Origin: an uncultured Chloroflexales bacterium
GTDB lineage: Bacteria > Chloroflexota > Chloroflexia > Chloroflexales > Chloroflexaceae
Reading direction: 5' to 3'
Length of the DNA stretch: 34,304 nt
Assembly (NCBI GenBank): GCA_937925925.1
Contig: CALANA010000063.1
Span: 1-34,304 of the forward strand
Every line of letters starts with the position of its first letter. The stretch's first letter is position 1. Below, piece by piece: positions 1,656 to 34,304 of the stretch. Made by a program: the position numbers and the translations under genes. The notes beneath the pieces were generated by a model. That model had not been told where the DNA came from. It did not search any database and worked only from the letters and a program-made list of their open reading frames with translations.

Positions 1656-4600
1656 TCACCATCCACCGCCGCTCCGCCGACCGCCACTGCGACTGCTGCT
1701 GCCCCAACTGCCACCACTACGACTACCACCGCCCCAACTGCCGCCACTACGACTGCCGCTACTGCGACTGCCCGCACTACGCGCACCGGCACTGGGACTG
1801 CGGCCAGTATTATTGCGTCCGGATTTGCTCCTACCGGTGTTGCCACCAGCACTCCATCTGCCACTCCCGCCCCAACCACTGTGACGCCGTGTACCTGATG
1901 AGCCAAGCATGCTGCCAATAAGCATACCCTCCACAAAATCGCCCATCCCCCCACCGCTTCCGCGCTGCGGTGGGCGGCGGTAGGAGCGGATGATCTCATT
2001 CTCGGCCTCGCGTGCATCATCGTGAATGGCCCGTGCCAGACGTAGCGCCTCTTGCAGGTTCTCTTCCCCTGCAATCGGCAAGCGGATTTGCTCAAAGCGC
2101 CGGTGCGCCTCGCGCAACTTACGTACCGGTGGCCCATCATAGGGCACAGCAATACCATACTGTGTCAACGTACGTTCGGCGCTGGCGAGCGCGTTGCGGG
2201 CACGGGCTAACTCGTCGTTCACCGTGGTGCGCAATTGCTCAAGTTGTTGAAAGTCGTTGTACACCATGTTATACACCTGCTCGGCATCGGTCTGCAGACG
2301 TGTATAGCTGGCATAGGCCTGCTGCAAGGCGGCGCGACGTTGCTCCTCCACGGTCTGTTCAGCCTGCTGCAACAGCGTGTAGGCATGTTGCACCTGCTGC
2401 TGGATCAGCGCAATCGATTGCTGGCTGCCGGGCTGAATGTCTTGACGATGCACACCGGCAAACTGGACGATTTTTTGCACTTCGGCAGTGGCGAGTTTCC
2501 GCGCATGCTCTGTCTTTGTGCGCAATTTTTGCATCTCTTCCACTTCCGAGCGGGCACCAGTCAACGCTTCGTCGGCCAGGTTGTTGGCGGCCTGTGCCTG
2601 TCGTACCAGGTGCAACCAGTCCGGCTTCTCCTTCTGCATCTCGTCGCGTGCGAGTGCCAGCGATTGCTCGGCATGCTTGAGTTGTAATTCCGGGGCTTTG
2701 CCTACATCGGGATCATGAGTCCGCACAAACTCCCAGCCACGGGCAATATCGGTGGCTGCCGCTTCGAGTTCGGCGCGGGCAATGGCTCGCGCTGCTTGCA
2801 GATCTTCCAGGCGCTGCGTAATAGCGTCTAGCAACGAACGGGCATACGCCAGCTCCGCCGCTGCCGCATCAAGATCTTCACGCGCAGCCGCAAATTCCTG
2901 CACCTGCATGGTGTTTCTGGTGCGTGCGCTGAACCAGTGTTCCTGCGCACGGTTGGCAGCCGCCTCGGCCTCACTGCCATTGCCGCGAATATCGCTCCAG
3001 GTACTTTCGGCAAATTCGTCAACCAGATCAAAGGTTTCATGTCCAGTCGTAATCAACTGCGCGACCTCGGCCCCCAGTTGTTCTATCTCTGCCAGGCGTT
3101 GTTCATTTTCAGTGCGCAGCGTCACCAACCCCCGACCTTGCGCCACTGCCGTCGCCAGTGCCGTCTGTGCCACTTCCAGTGCGGTTTGAGCGGGTGTGAT
3201 ACCCTGTCGCTGTAAGATCTGAGCGGTGGTGGTCAACTCCTTGCGTGCCTGATCCAGCGCGGCATGGCTGGCATTGACGCGATACCCCTCGTTAGCCAGC
3301 GCTTCAGCCTCCTGGCGTGCCTGCACAATGCCGGTGCGAATGGTGGTATAGGTTGCCAGCATATCTGCCAGGGTTGCGGTGGTTTCTAGCGCGGTTTCAG
3401 CCAGTGTTATCGCCTGGTGTGTGTCGTGGATGGCCTGATATTGCTCGGCCTGAGCGATGATCTGCTGCACTGGCGACAGGACGGCGGCGGTATCTGGGAT
3501 TTCCCCTCGTAACGGCTCCAGGCACTCAACAACATCACTCATTTTTTTTTTGGCACGGTCAATGGTTTCAGCCGCCTGGTTTGCCAGGTGATCTAGTTCC
3601 ACGCGCCGGGCGTTGAGTTGTTCAAGTTGCTCGTGCAGGGCGGTCACCAGTTGCTGCACCTCGGTATAGCCCTGCTGTGCCTGATCATAGTCTGCCAGCG
3701 TAGGAGACGCCTGTTGTGCCAGCGTATCGCCGACTTGCGTGAAACGGGCCTGTACTGCAACAAACTGCTGCTGAACCTGCTGCTGCATCTCGGACAGGCG
3801 CTGGACATCAGCCGGCGTGTATGAAAGCCGGTCAAACTGCGCCTTTTCATCGGCCATACGCAGCAGACGCCCACTATCGGCCAGGGCAACCCCCACATCA
3901 CGACGCTGATCGTCGGTCTGCTGGCGAGCAGCGCTCAAGACCTGAGCGGCGGCGCGGCGACGGCGAAATACGCTCCAGCCTCCAAACAGGCCCAGCAGCC
4001 CCAGCAGCCCCAGCACGACCAGCGCCATCGGCGCAAAAAAGTTGGGCCTGGCCGTTGGGCCTGGAGCTGACGCTGTCGGGCTGGCAAGCGCCTGATCAAA
4101 AGCGCGTAGGGCATTCACAAAGCCATCGCTAAAATTTCCGGCAACCAGGTCAGGATTCAACTGTGTTTCGCGTATCACCTCCAGATCATATGCGCCAGTC
4201 AGGGCCGAATCCCAGCGGGAACCAGCCGCAAGTTCACTATAGCCGCCTTCTGCGTTCAGTGCTACATAAATGGCGATCACGTTGTCGTCCAGCCGTCCAT
4301 TGCGCTCCAGTTCGGCTGCCCTGAGTCGCCGCGTAAAATCGGCCTGACCACCATTGGCGACCATATAGACCGCCACCACTGCGCCACGGTCAAGCAGCGG
4401 TTGAGCTGCCTGCGCGATCTGCTCCTGGTCGATCAATCCCGCATCATCGACAACAACCAGGCGGCCCTGAGCCAGTGCCGTTGTCACTGTCAACAGCAGG
4501 CAGAGCGCTGCCAGCAGGCCAGCCATGGCACCACGATACGTTGATCGGAACCATTCAGGTGAGGTGGTCTGGCAGGGTTGTACCGCTCCAGGAGGTTCTT

Positions 4601-4757
4601 GTTCGATCCGTTGTGGCAGTAAAGCCGCCACAACGGGCCGATGGGCGGAGTTTATAGGGGCCGAAGGCCCCGGCAAACTTCGCTGGCGAAGGTTCCCCTG
4701 AACGGGTACCTTTGATTTGTTCATGATTTTTTGTTCTCGTACATTACGTATGCTCAT
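1656..4757 (-). CDS. TPM-domain membrane protein with long coiled coil and Gly/Ser/Arg tail
   Basis: The longest frame is 1033 aa. The order is: N-terminal extension (1-77); hydrophobic signal core (about 78-96, MAGLLAALCLLLTVTTALAQ); a TPM (YgcG/psb32-type) domain (about 100-220) with VVVDDAGLIDQEQIAQAAQP at its front; a second hydrophobic segment (about 242-262); a basic RRRR stop; about 650 residues of Gln/Ala/Glu-rich helix likely to form coiled coil; and a tail from about 930 rich in Gly, Ser, Arg and Trp (SRSGGSWGG repeats). The TPM domain is probably exported and the coiled coil cytoplasmic. TPM proteins are linked to membrane-protein or photosystem maintenance, but the role here is unknown. 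Residues 17-70 are encoded by an inserted M2 repeat (4548-4709), so the true start is uncertain: ATG at 4757, 4724 or 4526. No start has a strong ribosome-binding site. It follows the phosphotransferase gene by 21 bp. Confidence 0.8.
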   Translation of the reverse strand: MSIRNVREQKIMNKSKVPVQGNLRQRSLPGPSAPINSAHRPVVAALLPQRIEQEPPGAVQPCQTTSPEWFRSTYRGAMAGLLAALCLLLTVTTALAQGRLVVVDDAGLIDQEQIAQAAQPLLDRGAVVAVYMVANGGQADFTRRLRAAELERNGRLDDNVIAIYVALNAEGGYSELAAGSRWDSALTGAYDLEVIRETQLNPDLVAGNFSDGFVNALRAFDQALASPTASAPGPTARPNFFAPMALVVLGLLGLLGLFGGWSVFRRRRAAAQVLSAARQQTDDQRRDVGVALADSGRLLRMADEKAQFDRLSYTPADVQRLSEMQQQVQQQFVAVQARFTQVGDTLAQQASPTLADYDQAQQGYTEVQQLVTALHEQLEQLNARRVELDHLANQAAETIDRAKKKMSDVVECLEPLRGEIPDTAAVLSPVQQIIAQAEQYQAIHDTHQAITLAETALETTATLADMLATYTTIRTGIVQARQEAEALANEGYRVNASHAALDQARKELTTTAQILQRQGITPAQTALEVAQTALATAVAQGRGLVTLRTENEQRLAEIEQLGAEVAQLITTGHETFDLVDEFAESTWSDIRGNGSEAEAAANRAQEHWFSARTRNTMQVQEFAAAREDLDAAAAELAYARSLLDAITQRLEDLQAARAIARAELEAAATDIARGWEFVRTHDPDVGKAPELQLKHAEQSLALARDEMQKEKPDWLHLVRQAQAANNLADEALTGARSEVEEMQKLRTKTEHARKLATAEVQKIVQFAGVHRQDIQPGSQQSIALIQQQVQHAYTLLQQAEQTVEEQRRAALQQAYASYTRLQTDAEQVYNMVYNDFQQLEQLRTTVNDELARARNALASAERTLTQYGIAVPYDGPPVRKLREAHRRFEQIRLPIAGEENLQEALRLARAIHDDAREAENEIIRSYRRPPQRGSGGGMGDFVEGMLIGSMLGSSGTRRHSGWGGSGRWSAGGNTGRSKSGRNNTGRSPSAGARSAGSRSSGSRSGGSWGGGSRSGGSWGSSSRSGGRRSGGGW
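4548..4709. repeat. M2 mobile repeat inserted in frame in the TPM-domain gene
   Basis: A 162-bp copy of the M2 family (others at 14222-14338 and 23310-23429). The left terminus GAACCATTCAGG and right terminus CCTGAACGGGTAC are imperfect inverted repeats. The internal CTCCAGGAGGTTC, GGGGCCGAAGGCCCC and CGCTGGCGAAGGTTCCCC segments match the other copies. The element covers codons 17-70 of the host reading frame exactly. Flanks CGTTGATCG and CTTTGATTT agree at 6 of 9 positions, consistent with a decayed 9-bp target duplication. Confidence 0.75.
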
Positions 4758-32629: not shown

Positions 32630-33985
32630 ATGAATGATCCACGATATGAACCGTATAGCACACCATCGGACATGTCTGACCCACAGCAGCGCAAAACCTT
32701 GCTATGGATAGTGCTGGGCGTCGGTGGCCTGATAGGGGTGATGATCTGCTCCCTGAGCGCATTGCTGGCCTTTGTGTTGCTCAATACCTCCCCCCGTATG
32801 CCAGCGTTCCTTCAACCTGAACCTGACTTGCCACCACCACCTGAAGCACCGCGTGCCGCTGATGCTGCACCGACCATTGGTCTGGTACTGATTGAGGAGG
32901 ATTTTGCGCAGGCAACCAATCGCTGGGATCAATCCTTAAGCCGGGTGGTTGATGGTGCCTACGAACTGCGGGTAGATATTCCTAACTATGATCGTTATGG
33001 CCTGTTTCTCAGCGATGGAGCGGTTGCCAATTTTGATATGGCGGTCGATGTGCAGCAGGTCGCGGGCGACTTGACCGCCGAGTATGGAATTCGCTTCCGC
33101 CAGAGTGGGCCAGGTAATTACCTGATGTTCTCCATCAGCGGCTCAGGCTATTATCGCCTGGTGCGGGTGAGCGCCAATACCTACCAGTCGATTGTCCCCT
33201 GGACGTTTGACCAGCGTATCGCAACTGGATCCGCAGCGGTCAACCGGCTGCGCGTGATTGCCCGTGGCGCAAATATTACTGCTTTTCTCAACGATGTCCA
33301 GGTGATTACTACGACTGACGACATTGCCACCAGTGGTCAGTTGACAGTAGGAGTCACCACCTTTGATCAGGGTGGCCTGGTGGTGCGCTTCGACAACATT
33401 GCGGGCCAGGCCGAGGGACAGAGTTTACAGGAGGACTTTAGTAACGCCGAAACAACGCGCTGGAGCATTGGGGGTGCAACCATTCGTGATGGTGCCTATG
33501 AACTATTTGCCGGTGGCGGTATTCAATCCTGGCAGCAGCCATTGCCGGTCGGATCTTCACGTGTCAACGATTTCGTCCTCGAAGTTGAGGCCGAATTAAT
33601 GAGCGGCGCTGATGAGAACATTGCGTATGGGGTGATGTTTGGTGATGGTGGTTCGTTCGATTTCTATAGCCTGTTCATTTTTCCGGATGGCAGCATGACG
33701 TTGCTCCTTTCCGATGGCGAAGGCGGGTTGCTGCCACTCATCCCACGTATGGAAGTTCCAGCTATCAAGTCTGGTCGTAATCAGATTAACACTATTCGGG
33801 TTGAAGTACGCTCAAATGTTATTCGTCTTACGATCAATGATACGCCCCTGCCCGACATTGAAAGCCTGTTTCCGATTGAGGGCGAAGTGGGCATGATTGT
33901 GAGCAGTGGGCGTACCGGTAGCGTCCAGGCTCGTTTTCATCGCTTTCATTTGCGAGAGTTGCCAAAAGGTGGACAGCAGGTGTAG
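32630..33985 (+). CDS. Membrane-anchored protein with two lectin-like (LamG/DUF1080-type) domains
   Basis: A 451-aa protein. A short cytoplasmic N-terminus is followed by one membrane helix (about 24-51, LLWIVLGVGGLIGVMICSLS and on), a Pro-rich linker (PEPDLPPPPEAPR) and two repeats of a concanavalin-A-like jelly-roll domain. The repeats start IEEDFAQATNRWDQS and LQEDFSNAETTRWSIG and both contain DGAYEL, so they arose by duplication. They end in the typical strands NRLRVIARGANITAFLNDVQ and NTIRVEVRSNVIRLTINDTP. The domains face outward and may bind sugars or surface polymers; no catalytic motif is seen. The start at 32630 has AGAGAGG 5 nt upstream; the frame is open 12 codons further. Common in Chloroflexi; role unknown. 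Confidence 0.8.
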   Translation: MNDPRYEPYSTPSDMSDPQQRKTLLWIVLGVGGLIGVMICSLSALLAFVLLNTSPRMPAFLQPEPDLPPPPEAPRAADAAPTIGLVLIEEDFAQATNRWDQSLSRVVDGAYELRVDIPNYDRYGLFLSDGAVANFDMAVDVQQVAGDLTAEYGIRFRQSGPGNYLMFSISGSGYYRLVRVSANTYQSIVPWTFDQRIATGSAAVNRLRVIARGANITAFLNDVQVITTTDDIATSGQLTVGVTTFDQGGLVVRFDNIAGQAEGQSLQEDFSNAETTRWSIGGATIRDGAYELFAGGGIQSWQQPLPVGSSRVNDFVLEVEAELMSGADENIAYGVMFGDGGSFDFYSLFIFPDGSMTLLLSDGEGGLLPLIPRMEVPAIKSGRNQINTIRVEVRSNVIRLTINDTPLPDIESLFPIEGEVGMIVSSGRTGSVQARFHRFHLRELPKGGQQV

Positions 33986-34013
33986 TCCGATATGCTCATA
34001 CAAGCGGTCAGAG

Positions 34014-34205
34014 CGCTTGAACGCTTGAACGCTTGAACGCTCGAACGCTCGAACGCTTGAACGCTCGAACGCTCGAACGCTTCACCGCTTCACCGCTTCA
34101 CCGCTCCACCGCTCCACCGCTTCACCGCTTCACCGCTTCACCGCTTCACCGCTTCACCGCTTCACCGCTTCACCGCTTCACCGCTTCACCGCTCCACCGC
34201 TTCAC
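34014..34205. repeat. 24-unit octamer tandem array
   Basis: Eight units of CGCTTGAA or CGCTCGAA (34014-34077) followed without a break by sixteen units of CGCTTCAC or CGCTCCAC (34078-34205). The 8-bp period is exact throughout, and only the T/C at position 5 and the last three bases vary. It lies between the end of the lectin-like gene and the stop codon of a leftward gene. An open frame across it is a by-product of the repeat. Confidence 0.95.
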
Positions 34206-34212
34206 CGCTTCT

Positions 34213-34304
34213 TTACACCACCTCAACCCGATGCTCGCCCAGGATTTCCTGGAGTTGCGCTATCAAGACGGTTGAGAGTTGCACGCGATAGCGCGGACGC
34301 AAAA
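34213..34304 (-). CDS. 3' end of an unidentified leftward gene (partial)
   Basis: The reverse strand encodes the last 29 or so residues of a protein: LRPRYRVQLSTVLIAQLQEI followed by LGEHRVEVV and a TAA stop at 34215-34213. The rest lies beyond the window. I do not recognise the family. Codon use looks like the neighbours and the frame is open to the edge, so a real gene is likely. Confidence 0.5.
   Translation of the reverse strand, partial: LRPRYRVQLSTVLIAQLQEILGEHRVEVV

Follow-up and report, generated by a model that had tools for sequence, protein, structure and literature searches.

An in-frame MITE insertion at the front of a predicted secreted membrane protein gene in a Chloroflexaceae bacterium

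The question raised by the locus

How a bacterial gene fares when mobile DNA lands at its very front is a question raised by a long open reading frame in the window, by which we mean the whole 34,304-nucleotide stretch of DNA that was analysed. A sequence-only reading of this stretch proposed that a mobile repeat had inserted in frame between the start codon and the signal core of a secreted membrane protein and had there been domesticated. We therefore asked whether the repeat is a genuine transposon, whether relatives lack it, which start codon the gene is likely to use and whether the added residues show signs of selection. The features on which the analysis turns are as follows.

1656..4757, minus strand: host open reading frame, 1033 codons from the ATG at 4757, 1022 from that at 4724 and 956 from that at 4526
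4755..4757, minus strand: second candidate start, an ATG further upstream, separated by 21 nt from the stop codon of an APH-family gene
4722..4724, minus strand: favoured start ATG (MNKSK...) in an AT-rich, unstructured context; probable pre-insertion start
4710..4717: target-site duplication, gene-start-proximal copy, CTTTGATT, 6/8 match to 4539-4546
4547..4709: long-form MITE copy, 163 bp, with terminal inverted repeats (TIRs) GGAACCATTCAGG (4547-4559) and GTACCCGTTCAGG (4697-4709, minus strand), delimited by TIR alignment
4539..4546: target-site duplication, gene-start-distal copy, CGTTGATC, 6/8 match to 4710-4717
4524..4526, minus strand: ATG internal to the gene, heading the hydrophobic core, with no Shine-Dalgarno, a structured context and no basic residue preceding that core
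4467..4526, minus strand: hydrophobic core of the signal peptide together with its AQ site, MAGLLAALCLLLTVTTALAQ; it aligns with the signal peptides of 29 orthologous loci

The positions that the earlier reading gave for the three starts, and for the signal core at residue 78, are correct. The predicted protein begins with a signal peptide and a TPM domain (PF04536), continues through a transmembrane segment into a long coiled coil and ends in a Gly/Ser-rich tail. All but the TPM domain were read by us from the sequence, and the domain itself is a marginal match, the N-terminal 175 residues scoring 22.9 bits against a curated cut-off of 22.1. In its signal peptide, TPM domain, transmembrane segment and Gly/Ser-rich tail the protein resembles other TPM-domain secreted membrane proteins, from which it differs in its very long coiled coil and in an N-terminus extended by a MITE in this genome only. 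By trpD the genome's named relatives are Chloroflexus and Oscillochloris (73-76%). A whole-protein search of the genome contigs returned no orthologues, whereas a search of whole genomes of the family found them, with tblastn alignments of approximately 650 codons at 42-44%.

The repeat is a MITE of a large family

The ends of the segment at 4547-4709 match the inverted repeat GTAACCGTTCAGG with two and one mismatches, and the segment itself has 61 matches in its own genome. Searching the genome with the TIR pattern GTAACCGTTCAGGGG and allowing at most two mismatches, we obtained 402 matches (212+190), compared to 6 (5+1) for a reversed-pattern control; these roughly 400 ends therefore correspond to about 200 copies in this Chloroflexus-like genome. 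We sampled 93 distinct complete elements, most of them either a short form of ~118 bp or a long form of ~162 bp, and found that 69 of the 91 copies testable for duplications have flanking duplications of 8 or 9 bp that differ at no more than two positions, against 0.9% of mismatched flank pairs. With TIRs of 13 bp, target duplications, a high copy number and a length too short to hold a transposase gene of their own, these elements are MITEs. The copy in the host gene is a confirmed transposon insertion, and both the mobile identity proposed for the repeat and the abundance of other copies in the genome are borne out by these statistics. Its target duplication has decayed (8 bp, 6/8 identical), and element and duplication together make a net insertion of 171 bp, or 57 codons, without a stop in the host frame. 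The earlier division into 162 bp plus a 9-bp duplication gave the same total, a multiple of three; TIR alignment places the boundary at 163 plus 8, which is the same alignment shifted by one base.

The MITE is probably IS66-related and moved by an IS66-family transposase, because IS66-type elements in relatives from the same bacterial family end in GTATCCGTTCAGG and are flanked by 9-bp duplications. Three such 1.5-kb elements (L161, L162 and L172) carry IS66-domain genes between these TIRs, with perfect duplications. GTATCCGTTCAGG is identical to the MITE end at 12 of 13 positions, the left end of L162 differing at one more base, so that the MITE shares TIR and duplication length with these elements and departs from them by one or two mismatches per 13-bp end. 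TIRs starting GTA...CCGTTCAGG, duplications of 8-9 bp and near-identical ends within the family are likewise shared with IS66-family insertion sequences and MITEs derived from them. By contrast, this genome yielded no autonomous partner ending in exactly GTAACC; it is a draft of 316 contigs in which a search for an intact or autonomous IS66 transposase returned only scraps at C127 and C142, the latter without TIRs.

Two further properties of the family deserve mention. Long-form copies contain an internal hairpin (at about 4605-4650 in this copy) in which paired positions change in a compensatory manner between copies, one pair being G-C in 14 and U-A in 10 of 27 long copies, as though the hairpin were being conserved in its own right. 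We found no description of a ~200-copy MITE family with a covarying internal hairpin in the literature searched. In addition, copies at L112 (1219-1359) and L186 (904-1021) lie just upstream of genes that by eye, and with no family search, appear permease-like and dihydroorotate-dehydrogenase-like, respectively, and each has an accidental open frame into its gene. We rejected both as further coding insertions, each gene having its own start after the element, and a long open reading frame running through the copy at L079 was discarded with no evidence of a gene.

Relatives preserve the empty site

None of the 29 orthologous loci that we examined carries the insert, not even L023, which is from the same genus, and the prediction that orthologues, distant ones included, would lack the extra codons was thereby upheld. 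In every one of these loci, 23-27 residues separate the likely start from the AQ site, and at least two of the first 12 residues are basic. When the flanks of the insert are joined (MNRSTYRGAMAGLLAALCLLLTVTTALAQG / MNRSTYRGAMAGLLAALCLLL...ALAQG), the result, MNRSTYRGAMAGLLAALCLLLTVTTALAQGRL, aligns with the orthologous signal peptides and has the same architecture, in line with the proposal that removing the segment would leave a normal short basic n-region. Together, the orthologues without the segment and the joined flanks that align with them provide strong evidence that the segment was inserted into the n-region codons of a signal peptide. The APH gene precedes the TPM gene at L023 as well; a glyoxalase-like gene (L023 about 780-1230) sits between the two there and is missing at the corresponding position in the window.

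Start codon use and the survival of the gene

We consider it probable that the locus records an old, in-frame MITE insertion whose 57 residues are translated from 4724 or 4757, are neutral and leave the mature protein unchanged. A non-autonomous MITE, probably moved by an IS66 transposase, would long ago have entered the n-region codons with an 8-bp target duplication, and the gene would have survived because the 171 bp added were in frame and open. Translation would most likely still begin at ATG 4724 (or 4757), so that 57 neutral inserted residues precede a signal core that is itself intact, and Sec and signal peptidase would process the extended signal peptide such that the mature protein is unaltered.

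The earlier reading had left two outcomes side by side, an N-terminal extension or a start at the internal ATG 4526. None of the candidate starts has a good Shine-Dalgarno at good spacing: anti-Shine-Dalgarno energies are -1.1 kcal/mol at 4526, -3.0 at 4724 and -4.1 at 4757, the last with long spacing, whereas the likely starts of the orthologues have clear Shine-Dalgarno sequences of about -5 to -10 kcal/mol. ATG 4724 lies in the most open context, with an unpaired fraction of 0.63-0.67 and a GC content of 0.33, compared to 0.31-0.39 and 0.62 at 4526. Initiation at 4724 or 4757, and hence translation of the extension, is thus favoured by a moderate margin over initiation at 4526, which lacks a Shine-Dalgarno, is GC-rich and structured and would leave the core without a preceding basic residue.

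These same observations weigh on the strongest competing explanation, that the MITE now serves as an untranslated 5' leader of a gene starting at ATG 4526 and that its open frame is coincidental. MAGLLAALCLLL is by itself a hydrophobic core, chance would leave the insert open with P~0.26 and in frame with a probability of ~1/3, and the copies at L112 and L186 likewise lie upstream of genes with a chance-open frame. However, a signal peptide begun at 4526 would differ from all 29 orthologues in having no basic residue, and the true start behind the L112 copy has a strong Shine-Dalgarno (-9.3), a contrast that is only partial given the weak one (-2.6) at L186. We regard this explanation as unlikely. 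No sigma-70-like promoter was found inside the insert.

Export could suffer from an n-region of ~75 residues, and a bleaker outcome is that this length, or the strong internal hairpin, abolishes export or expression and that the protein is heading to loss. The lack of any strong start signal would fit such a crippled gene. Against it, the 956 codons past the insert are still open and alignable despite substantial divergence of the insert itself, and because of this the host gene is probably still needed; we judge its loss of function to be distinctly improbable, and return to a translated, neutral insertion as the preferred account.

The inserted codons show no sign of selection

The insert is among the most diverged copies of its family, differing from the consensus at 38 of 162 sites, a figure that bounds its age only loosely, part of the divergence perhaps predating insertion; its closest copy among the matches listed is 77% identical. 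The decayed duplication suggests that the insertion is old. The insert is common to no close relative, and selection was gauged via the family consensus rather than directly. Its differences fall evenly over the host codon positions (14/13/11), and single-step changes in the host frame comprise 27 nonsynonymous and 10 synonymous, compared to a neutral expectation of 26.5:10.9 obtained by placing the identical changes at random along the insert. Since the observed ratio matches the neutral one and codon positions are evenly affected, there is no sign of selection on the encoded residues, nor that the added segment has been put to use; the comparison concerns a single sequence and has little power to reveal constraint that is very recent or local. 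The absence of stops was correctly described, but we rejected it as significant, given that in 19 of 27 long copies the frame beginning at the same end is likewise free of stops. That the residues were domesticated for a selected function, such as export tuning or retention, draws slight support from the open frame and, in the face of neutral ratios, is very hard to credit.

Relation to known in-frame repeats

Insertion of repeats in frame into proteins is an already known kind of event, and Rickettsia palindromic elements in protein genes were reportedly described by Ogata et al. in 2000. These small (~150 bp) repeats, reviewed in PMC10969869, lie in frame in unrelated host protein genes and add tens of residues, much as the MITE does here. 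Unlike them, the MITE has no conserved peptide, whereas the Rickettsia elements enter many genes and encode a shared one, and its insert falls within a signal-peptide n-region, where it is removable by cleavage. Of the 93 copies that we sampled, this is the only one to read into gene coding sequence, and we therefore rejected recurrent gene invasion of the Rickettsia type: this is a single event, not the element's habit. The locus, with an empty site that can be reconstructed and target duplications that have decayed, offers a clean case in which transposon DNA has come to encode protein at no evident cost. Tentatively, and with more doubt than confidence, we suggest that translation includes the 57 residues, that they are tolerated as a Sec n-region of exceptional length, and that n-regions may be safe landing sites in which coding sequence from mobile DNA is later cleaved off, a simple reason why some such insertions could be neutral.

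A frameshift-like site in relatives of the host gene

In 19 relatives from several genera, the TPM/coiled-coil gene is split after about 300-325 codons at an A7 run (L016, L012, L030, L034, L035, L037, L029, L018, L028, L026, L038, L020, L036, L019, L015, L017, L011, L021 and L022). The site reads GCA AAA AAA (CTA AAA AAA in L012), after which the zero frame has one more codon and then terminates. Homology carries on in the -1 frame, usually with no start codon close by, and an SD-like motif, GGGGAG/GGAGG, precedes the run by about 10-14 nt. Eight Chloroflexus-like loci (L010, L013, L014, L024, L025 and L031-L033) keep the A7 run and SD in the same phase, yet there it is the zero frame that stays open and would give the long product, the -1 frame reaching a stop after six codons. 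The window itself has an A10 run at 3542-3551 (minus strand), with the zero frame open and no SD. We interpret the A7 run as a conserved -1 frameshift-like site, and both arrangements could give a short and a long product. An A7 site with an upstream SD is reminiscent of dnaX, a likeness known here from sequence alone, and a general survey of A-rich sites reports about 10% frameshifting at A_AAA_AAA (PMC3711429). Our literature search found no paper combining a TPM domain with a frameshift, and this site may outweigh the insertion in importance. Elsewhere, the window carries an 8-bp tandem array at 33982-34245 and a 117-bp tandem repeat at 141-491.
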